Under the pieces are notes generated by a model. That model saw only the letters and a list, made by a program, of their open reading frames with translations. It did not search any database and was not told the origin of the DNA. 40,847 nucleotides of DNA from Candidatus Methanoperedens sp. (GTDB lineage Archaea > Halobacteriota > Methanosarcinia > Methanosarcinales > Methanoperedenaceae), in assembly GCA_023249105.1 (NCBI GenBank), contig JAHFDG010000034.1:1-40847 (forward strand), written 5' to 3'. The translations under genes and the position numbers were made by a program. This document shows positions 9,850 to 21,550 of the stretch, piece by piece (the stretch's first letter is position 1; each line of letters begins with the position of its first letter).

Positions 9850-10025
9850 AAATACTCAAAATACTATGGGTGAGCTTTCTATTTTCTTCTGCCTCTCTGA
9901 TTTTAGGATTTGTTCTTTACATGCTTTTTAAATATTTATTTTCGGTTAACGCTCTATTGGGAACTTTCTGCGTTCTTTTTTTAAGCTGTTTTTTTCTTGG
10001 ATTAGCAGCGGAATATAAAAAATGA
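9846..10025 (+). CDS. Two-helix membrane protein
   Basis: A 59-residue, very hydrophobic protein. ATG 9846 overlaps the previous stop; the frame extends to 9798 but inside another gene. Two transmembrane segments (ILWVSFLFSSASLILGFVLY and LLGTFCVLFLSCFFLGLA) are separated by a short basic-aromatic loop, with a KK tail. Family unknown. Confidence 0.5.
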   Translation: MKILKILWVSFLFSSASLILGFVLYMLFKYLFSVNALLGTFCVLFLSCFFLGLAAEYKK

Positions 10026-10095
10026 TTAGCGGCCGTGTCACATTATAATAAAAAACATCGGTGCATCGTGGGCAGGGTATCGAGCAGCCGCTAAT
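10025..10095 (+). ncRNA. Long-stem element 1, degenerate partner of the tRNA-like element
   Basis: ATTAGCGGC (10025-10033) pairs perfectly with GCCGCTAAT (10087-10095). The inner 7-base segments GCGGCCG/CAGCCGC match the acceptor stem of the tRNA-like element at 10202 except for one C-A mismatch. The sequences flanking both elements are also alike (AAAATGATTRGCGGC before, CAGCCGCTAA after). No T arm is visible. It may be a decayed copy or a companion structured RNA. Confidence 0.4.
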
Positions 10096-10097
10096 GC

Positions 10098-10190
10098 AGA
10101 ACAGCCAATAAAACAAACTTGAACTGCGCGGGGGAACAGCTTGAAACAAAGCTTGAGAAGTCAAGGACTGAACCTGCGATTGGCTGTTCT
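10098..10190 (+). ncRNA. Long-stem element 2 (12-bp perfect closing stem)
   Basis: AGAACAGCCAAT (10098-10109) is the exact reverse complement of ATTGGCTGTTCT (10179-10190). Stacked on it, CGCGGG (10127-10132) pairs with CCTGCG (10173-10178) with one G-U pair. Inside, CTTGA-GAAG-TCAAG (10152-10165) forms a tight hairpin. There is no open frame of note. This is a strongly structured, presumably transcribed RNA of unknown class. Confidence 0.45.
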
Positions 10191-10201
10191 AAAAATGATT
10201 G

Positions 10202-10318
10202 GCGGCTGTGGCGGAATAGGTAGACGCTACGGAAGCTAGACGTACTTAGGGCAGGTGACGCTTTGGGAACGGAGCAGGATTGGGTACGTTATGCCGGGTG
10301 CAAATCCCGGCCAGCCGC
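10202..10318 (+). tRNA. tRNA-like RNA with Leu-type D arm and atypical insert
   Basis: A 7-bp acceptor-like stem (GCGGCTG/CAGCCGC) is followed by TG, a D arm with GCGG-AATAGGTAGAC-GC as in bacterial tRNA-Leu, and a T arm 10293-10298/10306-10311 with loop TGCAAAT. The T stem can be 6 bp, stacking on the acceptor to 13 bp. Where a 17-base anticodon arm and a short variable arm should be, there are 65 bases including ACGTAC/GTACGT (10240-10245/10284-10289). ACTTAGGG resembles a Leu UAG loop but lacks a good stem. No CCA is encoded. It is 117 bases in total, against about 85 for tRNA-Leu. It could be a tRNA with an insertion, or a tRNA-mimic RNA. Confidence 0.45.
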
Positions 10319-10338
10319 TAAAAATTGGAGGCAAGAGA

Positions 10339-11373: not shown

Positions 11374-11777
11374 ATAAAATAACTGTTGGCGATGAAGTCT
11401 ACGCAATTTTAGTGTTACAAAAGAAAGCAAAAAAAGGCACGACCTGGATCGGCGAACCTTACGAACCTTTGCAAGGGTCGATCATGAAATACGAAAAAGG
11501 TAAGGTATTCAGGCTTCACAGGCACATATTAAACCCGCGTATGATCCAAAGAACGCAGGAAGCGTTTGTCGTCATTTCCGGCAAGATAGAAGTGGTCATG
11601 CATGACAAAAACTTTAAACCGATTGGGTCATTACAAGCCTCAGCCGGGGATGCGATTTTTATTTACCGGGGGGGGCATGAAGTGAAAATTATTAAAGATG
11701 CTGTTCTTTATGAGATCAAAGCCGGGGCGTACACTTACGTTTCAGACGATAAAGAGTTTAAAAATGATAAGAGTTAG
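11370..11777 (+). CDS. Cupin-fold protein of glycan island
   Basis: A 135-residue single-domain cupin: KVFRLHRH near residue 46 gives the first metal-binding His cluster, followed by EAFVVISGKIEVVMHD and SAGDAIFIYRGGHEVKI, the two beta-barrel cupin motifs, and a C-terminal strand (YEIKAGAY). Small cupins of this type in polysaccharide clusters are sugar isomerases or regulators; the exact chemistry cannot be told. It overlaps the aminotransferase gene by 14 bases, so they are probably co-translated. Confidence 0.65.
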   Translation: MNKITVGDEVYAILVLQKKAKKGTTWIGEPYEPLQGSIMKYEKGKVFRLHRHILNPRMIQRTQEAFVVISGKIEVVMHDKNFKPIGSLQASAGDAIFIYRGGHEVKIIKDAVLYEIKAGAYTYVSDDKEFKNDKS

Positions 11778-12720
11778 CGAGCCTTTGCTCCTCGGAAACG
11801 AAAAAAAATATTTGTGCGAAGCTATCGACGAGGGCGAAGTCTCAAGCGGCGGGAAGTTTGTCAGGCAATTCGAGGAAGCTTTTGCAAAGTGGTCAGGTAA
11901 TAAATACGCGGTGGGCGTCTCAAGCGGGACAGCGGCGTTGGAAGCGGCGATTTGGGCTTTAGGGCTTCGTGGAATATCCGTACCTTCGGGAACGATCATA
12001 AGCTGTTATGTTGCGGCAATTCGTGCCGGGACAAAAGTTTTGTTAAGAGACAACGGAACAAACCCAAAACATGTCCATTTTATGCGCTGTCATCTATTCG
12101 GGGAGTTTGACGATTGCGGGGGGTTGTGGAACGTTGACGACCTTTCGCAGTATTGGAAACCCTATACCGTCCCCGATGTCGGATGCTATTCGTTATACGC
12201 CAATAAACTTGTTACGTCCGGTGAGGGCGGGGTGATTGTCACAAACCGCGAGGCGATTTACGAACGGTTAAAGTCATACCGGAACCTTTGTCACGGGGAT
12301 GAACGGTTTATCCACGATGATCTTGGTTATAATTTCAGGATGTCAAACGTGCAGGCGGCGGTTGCATTAGCTCAATTAGAGCAGATTGACAAATTCACCG
12401 AGATCAAACAAAGGAACAGAGATTTATATTTGAAATATCTACCGGAAGATATCGCCCCTAAATTCAGGTTTGAAGTTCCGTGGATGTATTTGGTTTATTA
12501 TCACGGGGACGCCGGGGAAATAGTCAAGAAACTGCAAGAGCTGGGCATTGAGTCCCGCCGCTTCTTTTATCCTATTCATCGGCAGAGTTTTATTAATGTG
12601 AAAGGTGACTTCCCCAAAGCGGATGATTTATGGGGGCATAGTTTTTATTTACCCAGCGGGTTAACACTGACGGAGGGTGAGATCATTCATGTTTGCAAAA
12701 TGCTACAGTCAATATTATGA
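11764..12720 (+). CDS. DegT/DnrJ/EryC1-type sugar aminotransferase
   Basis: A 318-residue PLP enzyme, starting at ATG 11764 (MIRVSEPLLLGNE); a frame from 11698 lies inside the cupin gene. Family landmarks are GVSSGTAALEAAIWALGLRG (substrate/PLP pocket), NVDDLSQY and the Schiff-base lysine Lys148 in SLYANKLVTSGEGG, then LGYNFRMSNVQAAVALAQLEQ. It transfers an amino group to a keto-sugar nucleotide for cell-surface glycans. It is about 50 residues shorter than typical members. Neighbours are a cupin and a methyltransferase, an amino-sugar modification set. Confidence 0.85.
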   Translation: MIRVSEPLLLGNEKKYLCEAIDEGEVSSGGKFVRQFEEAFAKWSGNKYAVGVSSGTAALEAAIWALGLRGISVPSGTIISCYVAAIRAGTKVLLRDNGTNPKHVHFMRCHLFGEFDDCGGLWNVDDLSQYWKPYTVPDVGCYSLYANKLVTSGEGGVIVTNREAIYERLKSYRNLCHGDERFIHDDLGYNFRMSNVQAAVALAQLEQIDKFTEIKQRNRDLYLKYLPEDIAPKFRFEVPWMYLVYYHGDAGEIVKKLQELGIESRRFFYPIHRQSFINVKGDFPKADDLWGHSFYLPSGLTLTEGEIIHVCKMLQSIL

Positions 12721-13336
12721 GCTGTTCAATTCTGACAAGCCCTACAAAAAAGAAATAGAATTTGTTTACAAATGGGCCGGGAACCCTTCAAGGATTTTAG
12801 ATATCGGTTGCGGTACGGCGAATTACTGGCAGCATTTCCCGCACGATTGTTTTATTGTCGGGATTGACAGCTCGAAGGAAATGATTGCGGCTTCAAAGCA
12901 TAAGAACAGGATACTTCACCAGAACGTATTAGAAGGTTTTAAAAGGACATGGTTACAGGTCGGATTAGTCACGGCTTTATTTGACGTTATAAATTACATC
13001 CCAGATCATTCATGGTGGAAAGATTTACCGCTTCAGAAAGGCGGGCATTTTATATTTGACATTTTTAATGAATCTATGGTAAAAAGGGATGGATTTCGAG
13101 CAACTAAGAAAACTATCGGTAGTATAAGCCGGATGATTTCGCCATTAAATTATGATGGCAAAAAGATTATTTTAGAAATTAAATTTGGAGGCAATGGCTT
13201 AAAATTACAAGAATTACACACTATGTATATCTGGAGTGAAAAAGATATTGAATCATTTTGTGGGCGAGAATTTGGGATTGTAGAGGTTAAAAATACGTCG
13301 ACATGGCAACAGTGGTGGAAACTCCAGAGAAAATAA
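12689..13336 (+). CDS. SAM-dependent methyltransferase
   Basis: A 215-residue class I methyltransferase. Motif I DIGCGTAN begins at residue 38, motif II around VGIDSSKEM and motif III GHFIFDIF. I chose ATG 12689, with GGAGGG upstream; a GTG at 12677 lies on that site. It overlaps the aminotransferase by 32 bases and the HNH gene by 34 bases. It probably methylates a sugar or sugar nucleotide in this island; the substrate is unknown. Confidence 0.8.
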   Translation: MFAKCYSQYYELFNSDKPYKKEIEFVYKWAGNPSRILDIGCGTANYWQHFPHDCFIVGIDSSKEMIAASKHKNRILHQNVLEGFKRTWLQVGLVTALFDVINYIPDHSWWKDLPLQKGGHFIFDIFNESMVKRDGFRATKKTIGSISRMISPLNYDGKKIILEIKFGGNGLKLQELHTMYIWSEKDIESFCGREFGIVEVKNTSTWQQWWKLQRK

Positions 13337-13752
13337 AATTTGGCAATGCATATCACAAAAGGTGGAGGGCTTTGCATCCAGAATCAGTTAAAAAAAGCGC
13401 GATTAAATTTAGGCGGAAAAATAAAAAAATATTAAAAATATATCACCAAGATTGGTACCAAAGAAATAAAAAAAAACATGACGATAGATCAAAAGAATAT
13501 GTTAAAAAAAATCCATGGGGGAGGCATTATAATAATGCAAGACAAAGATGCGTTAACCCAAAAAGAAAAGACCGAAGCAGCTATAAAGGTATAAAATTTT
13601 TGATGACTGTTGAAGATTTCAAGTTTTTATGGTTCCGAGATAAAGCCTTTAATCTTCGGAGGCCGAGCATAGATCGGGTTAATCCTAGGGGAGATTATAT
13701 TATATCAAACTGTCGTTTTCTTGAGATGAGAGAGAATTGTCAAAAAAAATAG
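13303..13752 (+). CDS. HNH-family homing-type endonuclease
   Basis: A 149-residue, very basic, AT-rich gene product. The C-terminal part (RRPSIDRVNPRGDYIISNCR, then FLEMRENCQ) is the DR-V-P-GDY-NCR-L-EN signature of phage HNH endonucleases related to free-standing homing enzymes. The N-terminal half has HPESVKKSA-type DNA-binding helices and a KNPWGRHYNNARQR region. It is wedged between the methyltransferase and the GT4 genes with 34- and 16-base overlaps, and its base composition differs visibly from both. Likely a mobile gene that promotes exchange of the surrounding region. Confidence 0.7.
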   Translation: MATVVETPEKIKFGNAYHKRWRALHPESVKKSAIKFRRKNKKILKIYHQDWYQRNKKKHDDRSKEYVKKNPWGRHYNNARQRCVNPKRKDRSSYKGIKFLMTVEDFKFLWFRDKAFNLRRPSIDRVNPRGDYIISNCRFLEMRENCQKK

Positions 13753-14732
13753 CTCTTTTGCATCGGCACACAAAAGACCGTATCTGCGAGACGAACGCGG
13801 CGTTCCCATATTTGGCTGAAAAAGGAATGGACGTTTTGACGTTTAAAAATTTTAACCGTTTAAGTGGATTCGGGAAGTTTTGGAAGTCTCTTTTCTGGAT
13901 TATTTACGCTCCGTTTCTTGTGATGGGAAAAGGCTACGACGTGGTGTACTGTGACGACAGCTATCCGTTTTATCCCGCCCTTGTAAAACTCGCTTCCCCA
14001 AAATCAAAAGTTATCATCCGGTTAGGTGATTTTCATCTGATGTATTATTACTCTGGGTTTGTTTATAAAATCCTGCATTATATCGAGAAAATTTGTTGGG
14101 GAATGGTTGACGGGATAATCGCTATTTCATGGGACATGGCGAATTTGATAAGGAAAGAAACAGGGCTGAAAGTGGATATTGCGCTTGACCCGGTTGATTT
14201 AAAAGAATTCCTGCCGCTGAAATCTACTTATAACCCTGAAACTATGTTCCCTATTGTTATGACTCATGGGGTGTTAACAAAAAACAAAAATGTTGATCTT
14301 GTTTTAGAAGCGGCGCGTTTTTTACCTGACGTACGATTCTGGATTATCGGGGACGGGCCGGACAGGAAACGGCTTGAAGCTGACAAGCCCAGAAATGTCT
14401 GGTTTTTTGGTTGGCGGTTTATGGACAGAATAAAATATTATATTAAAGATTGCAATGTGGGGCTAGCTTTGAGAAGCGATAACCCCGGCAATGATTACGT
14501 TGTCACTTCTCCTTTTCTTCAATACGGTTCAATGGGGAAACCTTGTCTTGTGACTCGGCGGAAAGTTTTTGGAGATTATGAATGGCAATTTTCTGGGGTT
14601 GATGAAATGGTCGAGAAGCTGAAAGTTCTTTTGGGCCATCCAGAAGAAGGCGAGAAATTGAGGGAATATGTGATTAAAAACCACGATGCGGAAAAGATTG
14701 CGGGAGAGATATGGGGGATTTTGAATAATTAG
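13737..14732 (+). CDS. Glycosyltransferase family 4
   Basis: A 331-residue GT-B enzyme starting at TTG 13737 (MSKKIALLHRHTKD). The N-terminal Rossmann half has VVYCDDSYPFYPALVKL. The C-terminal half has GVLTKNKNVDLVLEAA, then WIIGDGPDRKRLE and VWFFGWRFMD, the usual GT4 donor-binding order. A late SPFLQYGSMGKPCLVTRR replaces the common P-E-A-x-A-x-G-x-P motif. It transfers a sugar from a nucleotide donor to a growing surface glycan. It overlaps the HNH gene upstream; the pentanucleotide tract begins at its stop codon. Confidence 0.85.
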   Translation: MSKKIALLHRHTKDRICETNAAFPYLAEKGMDVLTFKNFNRLSGFGKFWKSLFWIIYAPFLVMGKGYDVVYCDDSYPFYPALVKLASPKSKVIIRLGDFHLMYYYSGFVYKILHYIEKICWGMVDGIIAISWDMANLIRKETGLKVDIALDPVDLKEFLPLKSTYNPETMFPIVMTHGVLTKNKNVDLVLEAARFLPDVRFWIIGDGPDRKRLEADKPRNVWFFGWRFMDRIKYYIKDCNVGLALRSDNPGNDYVVTSPFLQYGSMGKPCLVTRRKVFGDYEWQFSGVDEMVEKLKVLLGHPEEGEKLREYVIKNHDAEKIAGEIWGILNN

Positions 14733-14811
14733 GCAAGGCTCGGCGGGGTTCGGCGAGGCAGGGTGTGGCGCGGCGGGGTTGGGCTCGGCTTGGCTGGGTG
14801 TGGCAAGGTTA
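14732..14811 (+). repeat. Pentanucleotide (GGYNN)n tract, 16 units
   Basis: Sixteen consecutive 5-base units of the form GGC/GGT plus two variable bases start at the last base of the GT4 stop and end 32 bases before ATG 14844. The tract is G-rich against AT-leaning surroundings. A similar tract lies at 15910. The two bracket a two-gene cassette. No open frame or terminator is associated. Confidence 0.85.
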
Positions 14812-14843
14812 ATTTATAACTTTAAAACAACGAAAGGATGAAC

Positions 14844-15422
14844 ATGAAAAAGCTGAAAGTTAGTATTAAAGGCACAAGGGATTTGATTATGCATAACGGA
14901 AGGCTTGCGAACCCGCTAGACCCTTGGACGAGAGCGGTTAAAGCCGTGATTGAGAAGAAAGATAAAACTGATAAGGGTTTGATTGAGCTTATGAGAGTAG
15001 AGGCAAGAGCAAGCATTTACGAAACAGAAAAAAAAGAAGTTGGGCTCCCTGCTGAAATTGTTTACGCGTCGATTCTGGAGGCCGCCAGAGTACGTAAATT
15101 AGGAATGAAAATTGAAAGGGGGGTTCGGTATGATCCTATTACGGAACCTCTATTTATAAATGGGAAAATATTTAACGCTGATAAGTTCATAGAAGACCCG
15201 AAAAATATTTATTATGTTTCTGTCGGGAATAGAGGCAATCGGGTAATGAGATCGCGACCAATTATTAAAGGAGAATGGAGGGCGGATTACGAATTTGAAT
15301 TAGATCAAAACATTTTAAACATTGAATCGTTTGTTGAAATTCTGGTGTACGCTGGCCCGTATATAGGGCTTTGTGACAGAAGGCCTTTATATGGGACGTA
15401 CAAAGGGGAGGTCATAAAATGA
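14844..15422 (+). CDS. Conserved phage protein with IMHN motif
   Basis: A 192-residue protein; AAAGGA six bases before favours ATG 14844 over 14838. The N-terminus KVSIKGTRDLIMHNGRLANP and later VGLPAEIVYASILEAAR, VMRSRPIIKGEW and ALY-type C-terminus (GLCDRRPLYGTYKGEV) match a conserved phage/mobile-element family I have seen beginning TPLLMHNG. The beta-strand pattern resembles RAMP-like or RNA/DNA-binding folds, but I know no proven function. It is paired with the gene at 15419 and lies between two pentanucleotide tracts, out of context among glycan genes. Confidence 0.55.
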   Translation: MKKLKVSIKGTRDLIMHNGRLANPLDPWTRAVKAVIEKKDKTDKGLIELMRVEARASIYETEKKEVGLPAEIVYASILEAARVRKLGMKIERGVRYDPITEPLFINGKIFNADKFIEDPKNIYYVSVGNRGNRVMRSRPIIKGEWRADYEFELDQNILNIESFVEILVYAGPYIGLCDRRPLYGTYKGEVIK

Positions 15423-15904
15423 CGATTTATCAACAAATTAGTGACTATCTAATAAATAATCCTAAAAAAGAACCTGAAGATATTGTGAAAATGATTATGG
15501 ATCACAACGCAAAGAAAGAATTTTATCCATTAGTCCTTAAAGCTGTTGTTGACGAAAAAAGGATGTTAGCCAGGGCTAAAGAGGAGAAAATATTTAATAA
15601 AATGGTGGATGAAATGAGCATTGATGTTTCTGATGCTCGTATGTATAGCGAGAATTTTGAAAGCTCAAGTTATTCGACATTTGAAAGTCTTATGGATGCG
15701 GAATTCAAGATAAGGGGGAATGACTATATCAAATGGCGTGATGCGACCATTGAAGACCATGAGCGTTACATTGAGGCCTTGAAAGTGCAAATAATGGGTT
15801 GTGAAAGGAACGTCAGACTTCACCAGAAAGCGATTGAAAAAATAAGAAAACATGGCGTTACTTGTTTGAACGAAGTCCCTAAAAAAGATTTAGTTTTAAT
15901 TTAA
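15419..15904 (+). CDS. Cassette partner protein (161 aa)
   Basis: A 161-residue helical protein overlapping the previous gene by 4 bases (ATGA). It has an acidic middle and the block DYIKWRDATIEDHERYIEAL followed by AIEKIRKHGVTCLNEVPKK; the latter ending is a pattern I have seen in phage early proteins. Function unknown. It ends just before the second pentanucleotide tract, so the two genes look like a transferable unit. Confidence 0.55.
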   Translation: MTIYQQISDYLINNPKKEPEDIVKMIMDHNAKKEFYPLVLKAVVDEKRMLARAKEEKIFNKMVDEMSIDVSDARMYSENFESSSYSTFESLMDAEFKIRGNDYIKWRDATIEDHERYIEALKVQIMGCERNVRLHQKAIEKIRKHGVTCLNEVPKKDLVLI

Positions 15905-15909
15905 GTTGA

Positions 15910-15979
15910 GGCGTGGCCTGGCGATGTTTGGCCAGGCGAGGCCGGGCAAGGCTAGGCAAGGCTAGGCAAGGCTAGGCGA
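15910..15979 (+). repeat. Pentanucleotide (GGCNN)n tract, 14 units
   Basis: Fourteen 5-base units, one of them irregular (TGTTT at 15925-15929), the last eight including three copies of the decamer GGCAAGGCTA. It starts 6 bases after the stop of the 15419 gene and ends 27 bases before ATG 16007. It is the same repeat type as 14732-14811, in the same orientation. Confidence 0.85.
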
Positions 15980-16006
15980 GGAACATATTAAAAATGAGGA
16001 GTTATT

Positions 16007-16816
16007 ATGGCAAATCCTAAAGCAAGCATAGTCATTTTGAGCAAGAACCCGCCTCAAGCCTTGATTGAGCAATTGAAAGCCCAGACCTTTCAGGACTTTG
16101 AAATTGTCTATGCGAGGGAGAGAGGCATTTTATTTGCCATGAATTTAGCATTAGAGCGTTGTAGGGGTGAGATCATGGTCAGGATCGACGATGATGTTTC
16201 TATCCCCCCAAAATGGCTAGAATCGCTTTTAAAGCCCTTTTCTGATCCTGACGTTTGCGGGGTGACTGGCCCAACTTTTGTTCCCAAAGACAGGCGCAAC
16301 AACCGGGACAGCATCCGCTATGCTGAAAACCCGCATTGGTTTCTTAAATGGCTTTATGATAACGGGAAGTTCATGCCAGCCGGGATCTATAAATGCGGGT
16401 GTGTATCGTATGACTCCAATTACGAGGAAAGATTTAAAGAGAATTATATCCATTTTAGTTATGAGCCGGATCATCTTGAGGGAACGAATTGGGCGATGCG
16501 GACGGAACTGATACGGAAAGTCGGCGGGTTTGACAAGAAATTTGATGGGGTATGTGAATGGTTCGATGATGACGTGACGTTTAAAATCAAGAAGCTAGGA
16601 TATCGGTTAGCCTATCGAGCCGATGCTTATCTCTATCATCTTCTTGAGAAGGGTGGTCATTTCAACGAACGGTTCGAGGGATGGGGCCGGATCAAGAATT
16701 TCTTGAGGTTCCATATTCGGCATGGCAAATTTCATCCCAAGATGGTTTTGTATCTTTTGGTTTGGTGGGGGTATTTTATTTCTAAGAAATGGGGGATAAA
16801 AAATGACGCACGATGA
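16007..16816 (+). CDS. Glycosyltransferase family 2 (A)
   Basis: A 269-residue GT-A enzyme with GAGGAG upstream of ATG 16007. The fold begins ASIVILSKNPPQALIEQL. The donor/metal motif is RIDDDVS with Asp61-63, and the acceptor-side acidic motif lies in EWFDDDVTFKIKKLGY. A basic, aromatic C-terminus may contact the membrane. Typically adds one sugar to a lipid-linked or polysaccharide acceptor. It overlaps the next gene by 14 bases. Confidence 0.85.
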   Translation: MANPKASIVILSKNPPQALIEQLKAQTFQDFEIVYARERGILFAMNLALERCRGEIMVRIDDDVSIPPKWLESLLKPFSDPDVCGVTGPTFVPKDRRNNRDSIRYAENPHWFLKWLYDNGKFMPAGIYKCGCVSYDSNYEERFKENYIHFSYEPDHLEGTNWAMRTELIRKVGGFDKKFDGVCEWFDDDVTFKIKKLGYRLAYRADAYLYHLLEKGGHFNERFEGWGRIKNFLRFHIRHGKFHPKMVLYLLVWWGYFISKKWGIKNDAR

Positions 16817-17291
16817 GGCTATTAGTAAGATGCTGGGGCGTAGGCTGATAAAAAAACACTATGATTTTTTAATAAATTATAATCCAGATGTTTGTTATAC
16901 GGTGCTGGCCAAAAAATCCGGATTTTCCTATTCCTCAATACATGGGATGATTGAGGAATATGGATTAAAGCATAGAGATATTAAAAAGGCAAGAAGAAGC
17001 AAAAGAAGAAAATATGATAAACCGGAAACCCAATATAGGTTAAATAATTGGGATGAAAAGCTTACGTTAGAACAATTAGCAGATAAATTTGGTGTTTCTG
17101 TTACAACGTGTTGGAATTTGGCTAAAGATAAACATCTAGAATTTAGAAGATTAATACCAGAAAAACGCGAAATGAAGCTTAAAAGAGATAGGATCAAGAC
17201 TTTGGTTAGACAAGGAATAAGATTACAGGAAATAGCTAGATATATTGGTATTTCAAGGGAAAGAGTAAGGCAGATAGTCGAAGGCGTATAA
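16803..17291 (+). CDS. Multi-HTH DNA-binding protein with sigma region 4-like C-terminus
   Basis: A 162-residue, basic, AT-rich gene product with three helix-turn-helix-like segments: TVLAKKSGFSYSSIHGMIEEY (about 33-53), LEQLADKFGVSVTTCWNLAK (about 89-108) and LQEIARYIGISRERVRQIVE (about 141-160). The last matches sigma70 region 4.2 (ISRERVRQI). There is no nuclease motif. It could be a phage transcription factor, or the DNA-binding part of a mobile-gene system. It sits between two GT2 genes and overlaps the first by 14 bases. Confidence 0.65.
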   Translation: MTHDEAISKMLGRRLIKKHYDFLINYNPDVCYTVLAKKSGFSYSSIHGMIEEYGLKHRDIKKARRSKRRKYDKPETQYRLNNWDEKLTLEQLADKFGVSVTTCWNLAKDKHLEFRRLIPEKREMKLKRDRIKTLVRQGIRLQEIARYIGISRERVRQIVEGV

Positions 17292-17297
17292 ATAAAG

Positions 17298-18125
17298 ATG
17301 CAAAAAATATCGGTCATAATCCCAACCATGAAAGGGAGAGAAGAGCTTTTAAAAAAGCTTCTTTCGACACTTCCTGATGATTGCGAAAAGATCGTTGTCG
17401 ATGACGAAGATTTACTCTTGGCAGCTAAAAGGAATAAGGGGGCGAGACAGGCAAAAGGGGATTATTTCCTTTTCATCGACGATGATAATTACCTGAAAGA
17501 ATTTTCAATATCTGAAATGCTGAAAGCCTTTGATGGAACTATTGGAGTCATGGGAATGACCGCCTGTTACCACGATAAGAAAATGATTGTTGCAGATGGT
17601 GGATCGGACAGGAATTATCTAACAGGGTTTACTTATGGCGTTGGAACAAACGATAAAATATCAGACTGGAACAAAAAAGGAATTTATACCGTTGACGAAG
17701 TTGCGAACGCTTTTATGATCCCGCGTCATGTATTTGACGAAGCCGGCGGGTTCGATGAAGAAAACTTCCCGATTGATTTAGACGAAGCTGATTTATGCAA
17801 AAGAATAAAAGACATGGGGTATTTGATTGTAATGAACCCAAAAGCTATTTGCTACCACCGATCGAACACGTATTCACCAATTCCAAATTTCAGGAGGCCA
17901 ATCAGTGCGTACCATCTTTCAAGGAATATCATCTTGTATCAGGGAAAGCATCTTAATGCTTTATCCTATTTCGTGTTTTGTGTTGTTTTCCTTCCTGTAC
18001 GTCTTTGTTTTTATACAGCTTCGCTTATTTGGTATAAAAACTTTCAAATGATTCCGCACATGATAAGGGGGTTTTGGGATGGATTACGATGTCGTCGAGA
18101 AAATCCATATCAGCAAAAATTGTGA
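17298..18125 (+). CDS. Glycosyltransferase family 2 (B), rhamnosyltransferase-like
   Basis: A 275-residue GT-A enzyme. KISVIIPTMKGRE opens the fold; FLFIDDDNY holds Asp61-63. Later come AFMIPRHVFDEAGGFDE and DLDEADLCKRIKDMGY, the acidic acceptor motif seen in WbbL-like rhamnosyltransferases. A hydrophobic segment (LSYFVFCVVFLPVRLCFY) near the C-terminus suggests membrane association. It overlaps the HPr-kinase-like gene by 47 bases. Confidence 0.85.
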   Translation: MQKISVIIPTMKGREELLKKLLSTLPDDCEKIVVDDEDLLLAAKRNKGARQAKGDYFLFIDDDNYLKEFSISEMLKAFDGTIGVMGMTACYHDKKMIVADGGSDRNYLTGFTYGVGTNDKISDWNKKGIYTVDEVANAFMIPRHVFDEAGGFDEENFPIDLDEADLCKRIKDMGYLIVMNPKAICYHRSNTYSPIPNFRRPISAYHLSRNIILYQGKHLNALSYFVFCVVFLPVRLCFYTASLIWYKNFQMIPHMIRGFWDGLRCRRENPYQQKL

Positions 18126-18888
18126 AAAGGTAGGGGCGTTTTTATACGATCCTGAAATTGACGGGCTGTATCATGAAAGCCCTTGGCCTTTCCCTGTTCA
18201 GATCGGGATAACGCATGGGTTGACTCGATGTCAAGTCACGCCGATGTTTTTAAAGCTCCCGTTTATTTTAAAGGGCTGGCTCAACGAGCAAATCCTTCTT
18301 CGGATGATCGAGCTTTTGCGGCTTGTCGGGCAGGGAAAGATTTTGATGCATAGCAGTTGCGTTGACAATACATTGATCGTCGGATTCCCGAATTCGGGCA
18401 AGACGTATCAGACTTATAAAAACGTCTCAAACGGGGGGAAGCTGATCTCTGAGGAATATACAATTCTTGAGATTGAAAAAGATGGGGTGGTTGCTTCGCC
18501 GTATAAACCCGTCATGCGTACTTGCTTTTCAGGCCGCACGCTTAAAGATTGTAAAATTGAGACTTCTTTTTATGAAAAAGCATGGCTTGCGGCGGCGAAT
18601 TTAAGAGCGTGGGCTTTCCCGTTCATGTACGAAGGAGTGATCTGGAAAGAGATCCCGGCAACTGGGAATACGTCGCTTATCAAAAAGATTGTTTACGGCT
18701 CAACGGGCAGAGAGATTAAGGATTGGAAAACTTTCGCAATCCTTTGCGAGAATGAATTCCCTTTTATGGCGAGTGAATTTTTACAGGCTTATGCGGTGGC
18801 ATCCGGCTTTGACATTTTAGGAATCCAGAAACGGCAGAGAGAATTGATAAAAGAAATTATTGATAAAGTTTATGGTGGCCAATCTTAA
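18079..18888 (+). CDS. HPr-kinase-like P-loop protein
   Basis: A 269-residue protein. ILMHSSCVDNTLIVGFPNSGKT (P-loop at 102-109) follows the HPrK/PckA-like arrangement in which a His-Ser/Ala strand precedes the nucleotide loop; LISEEYTILE then stands where the family usually has an acidic metal site. The N-terminal 80 residues are a separate domain. HPr-kinase-like proteins occur in exopolysaccharide and peptide-modification clusters, where they phosphorylate small substrates. Here the substrate is unknown. It lies between two GT2 genes and overlaps both. Confidence 0.65.
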   Translation: MDYDVVEKIHISKNCEKVGAFLYDPEIDGLYHESPWPFPVQIGITHGLTRCQVTPMFLKLPFILKGWLNEQILLRMIELLRLVGQGKILMHSSCVDNTLIVGFPNSGKTYQTYKNVSNGGKLISEEYTILEIEKDGVVASPYKPVMRTCFSGRTLKDCKIETSFYEKAWLAAANLRAWAFPFMYEGVIWKEIPATGNTSLIKKIVYGSTGREIKDWKTFAILCENEFPFMASEFLQAYAVASGFDILGIQKRQRELIKEIIDKVYGGQS

Positions 18889-19472
18889 GCATACTTATCC
18901 CCAACCATCTTGAGCCGCAGATTGAAGCCTTTGTCCAAGAAATAGAAAATCTTGGGGTTTCAAGTGAGATCATCATCTGTATGGACAGGGGGAGCCGTGG
19001 GAAAGGATGGGCATTAAGAGAAGCATTTAAAGTGTCGAAAGGGGATTTGGTTTCTTTTATTGACGGAGATGGTGATTGTTGTGCTAGAATGTTGCTTAGA
19101 CTTTTGCCTTTCGCAGAAGATTTCCCTGTGGTTGTAGGGTCGAAACGTATTACAAAATCGCCTTTAAGAAGAAAGATAATGACTCATGTTACAAGATGGT
19201 GGTTCCGCCTTCTTTTTGGAGTAAAAGTTGATACTCAGACTGGAATTAAAATATTCCATAGAGAAGCCCTTGAAAAACTTGAAAATGGTTGGGCATGTGA
19301 CGATTTTTTATTTGACTTGGAAATAATAGCAAGATTGCAGAAATTAAATGTAAAAATGGTTGAAGTCCCGGTAGAGGTTGAAATCAAACGGCAGGTATCA
19401 TTAAAAACAATTTTTTTGATTGCTTGGGGGAGCATATGTCTACGATTAAATTTATTATTAAAAAAAGAATAG
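18872..19472 (+). CDS. Glycosyltransferase family 2 (C), DPM/GtrB-like, frameshifted at start
   Basis: From ATG 18981 the frame gives GT2 features (RGKGWALREAFKVSKGDLVSF, DGDGD, TGIKIFHREALEKL) as in dolichol-phosphate-mannose-synthase-like enzymes. The first GT2 strand is missing there, yet the same frame upstream (18885-18980) encodes LSILIPNHLEPQIEAFV, the classic beginning, with no start codon. ATG 18872 lies in another frame and reads MVANL just before it. One base too many at about 18883-18887 separates the two. So either the gene is newly broken, or ribosomes shift +1 at CTT AAG, or the assembly has one extra T. The first ATG in the intact frame is 18981. Confidence 0.6.
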
Positions 19473-19876
19473 GCCGCCCAAAAGATAAAAATAATTGGGT
19501 GGAAAGAATATGTAAAGCCTGTGGTTTAAAATTTATGGCCCGGCGATGTTATACAAAACGCGGGCAAATGAAATATTGTTCCGCAAAGTGCGGGTACCAA
19601 AATAAAGGAGAAAGGAATGGCCGTTGGAAAGGAGGCCGAAGTATAGATAATGGATACATTAAATTATATTCGCCAGATCATCCGTTTAGAGATTATGCAA
19701 ATAATGTTATGGAACATCGTCTGGTTATGGAAAAACATCTTAATAGATTGTTAAAACCAAAAGAAATTGTCCACCACATCAATCATATAAAAACAGACAA
19801 TCGAATTGAAAATTTAGAATTATTCGGCAATCAGTCTTTACATCGTAAAGCGCATATTAAAGAAAAGCATGCCTAA
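19436..19876 (+). CDS. HNH endonuclease with zinc ribbon
   Basis: A 146-residue, AT-rich, basic protein starting at ATG 19436 (GGGGGAG upstream). A zinc ribbon (CKACG... and KYCSAKCGYQNKGE) is followed by GRWKGG and the HNH motif EIVHHINHIKTDNRIENLEL, ending in H-x-KAH. This is the layout of phage HNH homing-type endonucleases. It overlaps GT2 genes on both sides (37 and 8 bases), so it is inserted precisely without breaking them. Confidence 0.8.
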   Translation: MSTIKFIIKKRIGRPKDKNNWVERICKACGLKFMARRCYTKRGQMKYCSAKCGYQNKGERNGRWKGGRSIDNGYIKLYSPDHPFRDYANNVMEHRLVMEKHLNRLLKPKEIVHHINHIKTDNRIENLELFGNQSLHRKAHIKEKHA

Positions 19877-20546
19877 AGTCTCAATAATAATCCCATGTAA
19901 AACAAAAGATTATTACGCGAAACGTTGTATCAAGGCATGTAAGAAATATTGTCCTGATGCCGAGCTTCTTGTCATAACTGACAAAATATGTTCCGGGCAT
20001 CCCGCCGGGAAAAGGAATTATGCGATGAGGATTGCAAAAGGGCATATTTTCGCTTTTATCGATTCTGATGCGTACCCATCGGAAGACTGGATGAGAAACG
20101 CCCTTTATTGGCTTAAAGTGTTTCCTGCTGTTTGTGGGCCGGGAGTCTTGCCTCCCGATGCTCCTTTCAGGGAAAAAGTCGCGGATCAAGTGCATAAATG
20201 GATGTTTTGCCCTTACCGCGTGATTCCGCAAAGCGCAAGGACGGTACGCTGGCATCCCACATTTAATTTAATCGTCTGGAAAGAATCTGCGTCTCAGTTT
20301 GAGGATTATCTGACAGGGGAAGATGATAAATTTTGCTCTAACATTGAAGAAGGTATATTTTATCATCCTGACATTTTGGTTTATCATAATAGACGCGGCA
20401 TATTCAAACCGCTATGGAGTCAATTTGGGGTATGGGCGAGGCACAAAGGCCATTTTCAGAGACTTGCGTTTGTGGCGTGGCTGACAACGTTATGGGTGTA
20501 CGCGGTTAATTTTGTGATTGGGTTTTTTAAAAGGAGGCTGTCTTGA
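19869..20546 (+). CDS. Glycosyltransferase family 2 (D)
   Basis: A 225-residue GT-A enzyme: KVSIIIPCKTKDYYAKRCI opens it, FAFIDSDAYPSEDW carries the D-x-D, and HPTFNLIVWKES stands at the acceptor side, with a C-terminal hydrophobic segment (LWVYAVNFVIGFFKRR) that would anchor it to the membrane. It probably acts on a lipid-linked glycan. It overlaps the epimerase gene by 4 bases. Confidence 0.8.
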   Translation: MPKVSIIIPCKTKDYYAKRCIKACKKYCPDAELLVITDKICSGHPAGKRNYAMRIAKGHIFAFIDSDAYPSEDWMRNALYWLKVFPAVCGPGVLPPDAPFREKVADQVHKWMFCPYRVIPQSARTVRWHPTFNLIVWKESASQFEDYLTGEDDKFCSNIEEGIFYHPDILVYHNRRGIFKPLWSQFGVWARHKGHFQRLAFVAWLTTLWVYAVNFVIGFFKRRLS

Positions 20547-21550
20547 AGGCGCTTGTGACAGGGGCTTTAGGGTTGGTTGGTTCCGAAGCTGTCCGCTATT
20601 ATCTAAACAACGCCTGTGAAGTGATTGGGGTAGATAACGACATGCGAAAACACTTTTTCGGGGAAGATGCGTCCGTTGCAAAAAACAAAATAGATCACGG
20701 CAATTACAGGCATTTTGGAGTTGATATTTCAAAGATTGAGGGATTATTCGAGAACGAAAAGCCGGATGTAATTATTCACGCGGCGGCACAACCGAGCCAT
20801 GATTATTCCGCGCAAAACCCGTTACTTGATTTCGGGATTAACGCTTATTCGACGCTTATGCTTTTGGAAATGGCAAGGAAACATACGCCGGCCGCGGTGT
20901 TTATTTATCTTTCGACGAATAAAGTTTATGGGGACAGGCCGAATGAGTTTGATTTTCAGGAATTTGATACTCGCTATTCGATCCCTAGGCAGAGTAAGGC
21001 TGTTACTGCTTCCACTTTGGGATTTAACGAGTCTTTGAGTATTGATTTTACGACGCATTCCCCTTTCGGAGTTTCAAAGCTGGCGGGTGATTTATACGCG
21101 CAGGAATACGCCCGGTATTTTGGGCTGAAAACTGGTATTTTCAGATGTGGCTGTATCACGGGCGCAAGACATGCCGGCGCAGAACTTCACGGATTTCTTT
21201 CCTACATGGTAAAATGTAAAAAAGAAAATAAGCTTTATACGGTCTATGGTTACAAAGGCAAGCAAGTAAGGGATCAGCTTCATGCCTCGGATTTGGTTCG
21301 TGCGATTGACTGTTTCGTGCGTAACCCAAAGCCGGGCGAGGTCTATAACATGGGTGGGGGCCGCCAGTGTAACGTTTCGATTCTTGAAGCGTTCGATATG
21401 CTAAAAATGAAAAAATGGGAGTATGTCGGTACCCCAAGGAAAGGTGACCACAAATGGTATATCAGCGATACTAAGAAATTTGAAAATGATTTCCCTGAAT
21501 GGAAACGGCGATATACTCTATATTCGATATTCGGAGATTTAATGGGATGA
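20543..21550 (+). CDS. NAD-dependent nucleotide-sugar epimerase/dehydratase
   Basis: A 335-residue extended SDR protein starting at TTG 20543 with AGGAGG before it. The NAD loop is TGALGLVGSE (6-15). HAAAQPSHDYS and YLSTNKVYGDRPNE follow the CDP-paratose/CDP-tyvelose 2-epimerase pattern. At the catalytic Y-x3-K site it reads SPFGVSK: Phe175 stands in place of the Tyr, with Lys179 kept. IFRCGCITGARH matches family position. It would interconvert nucleotide sugars for the GTs here, unless the Tyr-to-Phe change has altered or abolished catalysis. Confidence 0.8.
   Translation: MKALVTGALGLVGSEAVRYYLNNACEVIGVDNDMRKHFFGEDASVAKNKIDHGNYRHFGVDISKIEGLFENEKPDVIIHAAAQPSHDYSAQNPLLDFGINAYSTLMLLEMARKHTPAAVFIYLSTNKVYGDRPNEFDFQEFDTRYSIPRQSKAVTASTLGFNESLSIDFTTHSPFGVSKLAGDLYAQEYARYFGLKTGIFRCGCITGARHAGAELHGFLSYMVKCKKENKLYTVYGYKGKQVRDQLHASDLVRAIDCFVRNPKPGEVYNMGGGRQCNVSILEAFDMLKMKKWEYVGTPRKGDHKWYISDTKKFENDFPEWKRRYTLYSIFGDLMG

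Follow-up and report, generated by a model that had tools for sequence, protein, structure and literature searches.

The RNA element at 10202-10319 of the window, that is, of the whole 40,847-nucleotide contig analysed here (JAHFDG010000034.1, from an assembly assigned to Candidatus Methanoperedens sp.), raises the question of what a molecule with the ends, D arm and T arm of a tRNA does when no anticodon arm lies between them. A preliminary description made from the letters had recognised the acceptor, D-arm and T-arm features, and both sequence and fold bear these out: on the forward strand, RNAfold gives a 7-bp acceptor stem, a tRNA-Leu D arm and a 6-bp T arm (Table 1). Exactly 65 nt (10228-10292) separate the D stem from the T stem, as had been noted, and these contain an 11-bp helix (10239-10249/10280-10290) with an inner hairpin and no anticodon arm, while the T stem and acceptor can stack into the 13 bp described, as 7 + 6. 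One small correction is needed, as N73 is U (10319), not A, and CCA is not encoded. The element is present in a single copy in the genome assembly and scored 77.5 bits (E 4.7e-16) when the family covariance model R1 was run against the whole genome, a score that is not independent since the alignment row of the window copy is among the 52 rows of R1.

Table 1. Coordinates of the window element and its parts, with the loci of the D-loop-insert variants. Positions refer to the window except where a locus number (L) is given
Feature	Position	Strand	Basis
Complete tRNA-Leu-like anticodon-less RNA, type 1	10202-10319	+	Family covariance model R1: 77.5 bits (window copy among the model rows)
Acceptor stem, 5′ strand GCGGCTG	10202-10208	+	7/7 pairs covary in relatives
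U8 and G9 equivalents	10209-10210	+	U8 = T in 227/227 unique relatives
D arm of bacterial tRNA-Leu type, GCG-GAAUAGGUAGA-CGC, 3-bp stem, A14 A15 G18 G19	10211-10227	+	Letters match real tRNA-Leu D arms
Linker replacing anticodon arm; hypervariable cassette begins here	10228-10238	+	Without anticodon stem
P2 helix, 5′ strand GACGUACUUAG	10239-10249	+	RNAfold; P2 enriched across family
Inner cassette hairpin GCUUUG-GGAA-CGGAGC	10260-10275	+	RNAfold; peculiar to window copy
P2 helix, 3′ strand, adjoining A-U48	10280-10290	+	RNAfold and family-wide enrichment
A, followed by the U48 equivalent (potential partner of A15)	10291-10292	+	U48 = T in relatives
T arm, 6-bp stem GCCGGG/CCCGGC, loop UGCAAAU (G55 replaces U55)	10293-10311	+	4/6 pairs covary
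Acceptor stem, 3′ strand CAGCCGC	10312-10318	+	Pairs covary
Discriminator position N73 = U, no CCA encoded after	10319	+	Sequence
D-loop-insert variants	L024:3737-3936; L057:11630-11870(-); L105; L227; L315		

Two hairpins lie immediately upstream of the element. The one at 10022-10095 (TTAGCGGCYG/CAGCCGCTAA) has an end stem nearly identical to that of the element, and a second long closed hairpin at 10097-10190 (GAACAGCCAAT/ATTGGCTGTTC) folds with a z of -4.25 against shuffles; either could be a degenerate or different tRNA-like RNA.

That the element is neither a canonical tRNA nor an obvious tmRNA, as first proposed, was upheld by searches against known RNA classes. ARAGORN reported 0 genes in the entire window, and Rfam 15 gave no match to the element at the gathering threshold, two spurious matches (snoU82P and FMN) at E 0.9-4, and no tRNA or tmRNA match even at E <= 5; with relatives of the element as input, too, neither program made an assignment. 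A readable anticodon arm is absent from the window and from the family described below, and since an insert takes its place, the RNA cannot be an ordinary tRNA.

Members of this small-RNA family occur in many phages and in some plasmids. Homology searching, which the preliminary description had suggested, found relatives in many phages with the pairing conserved. In a distant BLAST comparison with phage records, the D arm alone matched, in stretches without annotation in lactic-acid-bacteria and Enterococcus phages, and these stretches followed a common plan of N7 acceptor, U8, GGCGGAAUAGGUAGACGC, an unrelated middle, YAUG, a T stem with GGUGCAAAUCC, and the complementary acceptor strand. With a search pattern consisting of D-arm and T-loop letters, each of two IMG/VR scans returned at least 120 stretches, and two spacer lengths alone gave 61 contigs; extrapolated over the observed spacer range, the exact core is estimated to occur in ~1,000-2,000 IMG/VR contigs. 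The GTDB species-representative genomes yielded 70 stretches with one spacer range, mostly in Bacilli and Clostridia.

Members were also found in phages of Listeria, Lactobacillus, Enterococcus and Leuconostoc and in SBSphiJ-type Bacillus phages. The SPbeta/phi3T copy sits between yonN and yonK, the copy in Listeria vB_LmoS_188 lies downstream of a sigma-factor gene, and that in Enterococcus phage 21C1 adjoins the tmRNA. The tRNA cluster of A511/P100-like Listeria phages holds a degenerate member (L249:2887-3028, 39.9 bits) in which the D loop is not intact; Listeria phage CKA15 appears to be without an A511-type element. Among plasmids, copies are carried by the Enterococcus faecalis pheromone plasmids (L433:2934-3306 in pTEF1, L434 and L436), where they occupy the untranslated stretch from sea1 (surface exclusion) to a DUF5406/PrgU gene, upstream of aggregation substance. 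BLAST with this 392-nt plasmid gap as query found matches in 226 Enterococcus plasmid records, and in 157 these spanned 80% or more of the gap. According to the published account of pCF10, our only source for that plasmid, the untranslated prgA-prgB stretch is implicated in prgB regulation (PMC8265641). At L433 and L434 the family copy is followed by what seems to be another tRNA-like RNA without an anticodon arm, this one with a T arm of canonical type (TTGGCGT...GGTAGGTTCGACTCCTACCACGCCA).

The structure is strongly conserved across these relatives. In 52 diverse copies, 98.2% of cells were paired compared to 73.5% in shuffles, and 206 cells were changed on both sides compared to 51 in shuffles; compensatory changes were seen at 7/7 acceptor pairs and 4/6 T-stem pairs, and the covariation signal was destroyed when the partner columns were slid by 1-3. 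In 268 non-redundant copies, at least 6 of the 7 acceptor pairs were formed in 94%, compared to 12% when 3′ strands were swapped among elements. A tRNA score below background and a lack of conservation at the paired positions had been named beforehand as grounds against a tRNA-like RNA; the tRNA score does lie below background, whereas the lack of conservation is strongly contradicted by these 52 and 268 relatives. The letters of the D arm and T loop were set by the search pattern and their invariance is therefore not counted as evidence. Positions U8 and U48 fall outside the search pattern (for U8, the first pattern used), and both are T in 227/227 unique copies, as is U48 in 299/300 of a wider set, while the D stem, GCG/CGC, is replaced by GUG/CAC in copies beyond the first pattern. 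The stem covariation, the D-stem change and the conservation of U8 and U48 indicate that the parts of a tRNA elbow (acceptor, D arm and T arm) are present. Real tRNA-Leu genes scored ~25-26 bits with the family model compared to 64-85 bits for typical members, although many scored members, the window copy included, belong to the model alignment, so that the 64-85-bit scores are not independent.

The middle of the RNA behaves differently from this core. It is mostly 47-111 nt long, with extremes to 163 nt, and has no common sequence; neither a single shared motif nor a single fold was found across the middles that might point to the target of a payload. The sole recurring feature is a helix (P2) whose 3′ strand adjoins AU48. 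In the 268 copies this closing helix reaches at least 6 bp in 42%, compared to 9% with 3′ ends swapped, and at least 7 bp in 29% compared to 4%, and it is thus under selection. Pseudoknots between linker and loop, plausible in individual copies, were overall not above shuffles, and a canonical T-arm-like module, GGUUCRANYC, occurs in ~5% of middles. An 'AUG + stop' just before the T stem was considered and set aside, as arithmetic on the counts placed it not above the base composition of those T-stem positions.

Comparison of closely related loci showed how the middles change. In three locus pairs the flanks are 86-100% identical and the core 94-100%, with unrelated middles. At L394/L150, the flanks (300 nt each side) are 98% and 100% identical and the core 100%, but the middles differ in length and align at only 42%, with breakpoints exactly at AGACGC^ and ^CATG; L411/L170 and L171/L422 follow the same pattern of unrelated middles in near-identical loci. 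Among pairs with at least one flank more than 80% identical, 61/144 have unrelated middles, many of the 144 pairs being interrelated rather than independent events. Since unrelated middles occupy near-identical loci, the middle is an exchangeable cassette within a conserved frame, and the element belongs to a family of structured RNAs in which the core is tRNA-like and the insert can be exchanged. Diverse middles would also arise from a neutral spacer with occasional replacement.

The core resembles bacterial (class II) tRNA-Leu, with which it shares the D arm GCGGAAUAGGUAGACGC, U8, A14, A15-U48, G18G19, the 7-bp acceptor and a helix at the position of the variable arm. The family differs from tRNA-Leu in having no anticodon arm and an insert of 45-160 nt, and its type 1 form, to which the window copy belongs, also differs in the 6-bp T stem, the UGCAAAU loop and the unconserved discriminator A. 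Because the closing helix stands where class II tRNAs have their variable arm, we read the element as derived from a tRNA-Leu whose anticodon arm would have disappeared and whose variable arm would have grown.

A control scan that kept the spacing but used a canonical T loop (GGUUCAAAUCC) returned 69 contigs, most of which represent a second form (type 2) with a 5-bp T stem, a UUCAAAU loop and A73 in 31/41, then often CAA, CTA or CCA. T-stem length and loop type are strongly associated, 6 bp going with UGCAAAU (300:1 versus 12:41, Fisher p 1e-41). For the canonical-T-loop relatives, the intron mode of ARAGORN gives inconsistent anticodons. The acceptor of type 2 loci (L325-L393) is often AGTCAGG/CCTGACT. 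In a third variation, the D loop is interrupted by an insert of ~50-85 nt, in every case placed between G18 and G19 (Table 1). Locus L057 has two family copies ~10 nt apart. At L057:11876-11960(-) and L066:5376-5485 we also noticed candidate tRNA-like RNAs that lack an anticodon arm, have canonical T arms and carry D arms of non-Leu type, one of these candidates being nested inside a family member.

The genomic setting of the elements is varied. A tRNA gene lies within 1.5 kb of 36/122 elements with adequate flanks, and on the same strand in 36/36. No recurring partner gene was found near the elements beyond terminase, HNH, ArpU-like and similar genes, and the partner is therefore probably a host factor. 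DUF5406/PrgU was rejected as a general partner, being beside the element in E. faecalis plasmids and absent from the carrier phages. A promoter and terminator scan around the element gave nothing above chance. The 16S gene of the genome bin looks archaeal on our reading of its sequence, but the window contig carries genes of bacterial podovirus type (NinG, Terminase_3 and a PF12236 connector). By tetranucleotide composition the contig is not firmly assigned to the bin, and the other genomes searched from the bin's phylum contained 0 family copies at E <= 1e-6. The contig is here taken as that of a phage of uncertain host and may be misbinned. Sugar-modification genes (a DegT aminotransferase, glycosyltransferases and an epimerase) occupy 11698-21550 of the window, ahead of the terminase.

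Of the suggestions first made for this locus, that of a tRNA mimic pointed in the right direction, and the tRNA shape is probably used to present or protect something else. The reading that we favour, with a probability of about 0.5, is that tRNA-processing enzymes of the host trim and protect the tRNA-like ends, which serve as a stable scaffold on which an effector RNA domain is rapidly exchanged. The acceptor, D arm and T arm would form a tRNA elbow, with U8, A14, an A15-U48 pair and G18-G19 docking the T loop, and the position of the variable arm would hold a hypertrophied, exchangeable RNA domain of ~45-160 nt closed by the helix adjoining U48. Host RNase P and a 3′ tRNA endonuclease would cut the RNA from phage transcripts, often beside tRNA genes, and the tRNA-like ends would stabilise it and perhaps anchor it on machinery that binds tRNAs. 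The effector would be the exchangeable domain, different in each phage and swapped by recombination at the conserved arms, and such swapping would fit an expected anti-host or anti-competitor function. Transcription, processing, stability and the effector role are here what we infer from the sequence comparisons. A man-made parallel is found in the tRNA scaffolds used for recombinant RNA, in which stable tRNA ends carry a foreign insert at the anticodon arm; the family is proposed as their natural equivalent.

The tRNA-like core might itself be the active part, a decoy that occupies a host factor reading the acceptor or elbow (RNase P, the CCA enzyme, EF-Tu, LeuRS, tmRNA/SmpB or a tRNA-targeting defence protein are candidates), with the middle a spacer that prevents decoding. 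In favour of a decoy, very different phages keep the core far better than the middle and no partner gene is fixed, and a precedent exists in the CDS-less tmRNA of mycobacteriophage DS6A, which, as cited in PMC11915505, inhibits E. coli tmRNA when expressed. That RNA resembles the family as a tRNA-like phage RNA without a message and possibly an inhibitor but is, going by the same citation (PMC11915505), a short tmRNA derivative, whereas the core of the family is of Leu type and its insert hypervariable. We consider the decoy unlikely, as a pure spacer would need neither a selected closing helix nor wholesale replacement of the middle in near-identical loci.

Punctuation of RNA processing is more doubtful still. 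The tRNA-like signal would direct cuts by RNase P and the 3′ endonuclease that separate early or late operon segments, much as mascRNA is the tRNA-like cut signal of MALAT1. Copies are co-directional with their neighbours, ~20% of flanked copies precede terminase genes, some follow ArpU or sigma genes, and the E. faecalis plasmid copy sits in the untranslated sea1-DUF5406/PrgU stretch. However, copies stand in quite different places (in tRNA clusters, between tRNA-Arg genes, after an HU-like gene), and the elaborate exchangeable middle would be left unexplained. mascRNA and menRNA, which have a reduced anticodon arm and are matured by tRNA-processing enzymes, are likewise tRNA-like but are 3′ processing products of human lncRNAs without an exchangeable insert.

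LeuRS does not read the anticodon, and the family could in principle be a leucyl-accepting, tmRNA-like RNA, charged by LeuRS and used in a reaction linked to translation or EF-Tu. The D arm and A15-U48 position are as in tRNA-Leu, and the canonical T arm, A73 and CAA, CTA or CCA tail of type 2 would suit such a role. In type 1, however, the discriminator is A in only 126/268 copies (47%), compared to 46/47 real tRNA-Leu genes at the same loci, and with A73 lost leucylation becomes unlikely; type 1 RNAs, that of the window included, are probably not leucylated. The 13-bp stack and G55 of type 1 are also unusual. The family does resemble tmRNA (SsrA; RF00023, RF04321) in its tRNA-like ends and in the large insert replacing the anticodon arm, but it has a Leu-type D arm, an exchangeable and much shorter insert and no apparent tag frame, no shared coding pattern being visible by eye in middles of 47-163 nt. 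No tmRNA match was obtained, and the weak sub-gathering tmRNA fragments in L002 and L007 fall outside the elements. Leucyl acceptance thus appears improbable for the family.

There is very little to recommend a bacterial Y RNA with a Ro/Rsr partner and PNPase tether, although Y RNAs such as YrlA mimic tRNA, with parts like its acceptor and its D and T arms, and ncRNAs of Listeria phages have been put forward as Y RNAs (PMC12282133). In Y RNA, the 5′ and 3′ ends form the Ro stem and the tRNA-like part is distal (PMC8394870), the opposite of the family, in which the ends form the acceptor stem. TROVE/Ro (PF05731), which YrlA requires, was found in 0/9 genomes or records (the window genome and 8 carrier phages), with the control genome positive. 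With Ro absent and the topology inverted, the Y RNA reading is unsupported. The very abundant ncRNAs of Listeria CKA15 (PMC12282133) were also considered as possible members and rejected, as the most abundant cka15 region gave no family match; CKA15_055, the RNA-binding neighbour of these ncRNAs, is a DUF2828/DUF7788 protein.

A decayed or intron-bearing tRNA-Leu, both raised in the preliminary description, has scarcely any probability left despite the Leu-type D arm and tRNA-like ends: decay is ruled out by the strong compensatory covariation, which extends to every acceptor pair, and by recurrence in very diverse phages, while an intron is left unsupported by the lack of an anticodon stem or any conserved anticodon arm, by ARAGORN, which in its tRNA modes (intron modes included) and tmRNA mode recognised 0/192 type-1 elements, and by middles that are interchangeable at near-identical loci.

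In literature searches that covered few subscription papers or preprints, neither the core letters nor a description of the family was found, and we regard the family as probably new. It would have been overlooked because tRNA finders reject the RNA and Rfam lacks the family. The scaffold-and-effector reading may extend, more tentatively, to a class of mobile-element RNA in which an anticodon-less tRNA-Leu serves as a universal host-compatible scaffold for a cassette-exchanged effector in phage-host and phage-phage conflict. A large RNA family would be added in well-studied phages (SPbeta/phi3T and Listeria A511-like) and in E. faecalis pheromone plasmids, for which the core pattern is a ready tool for annotation, and with a conserved core and a replaceable insert, what phages gain from tRNA-related genes becomes directly testable.
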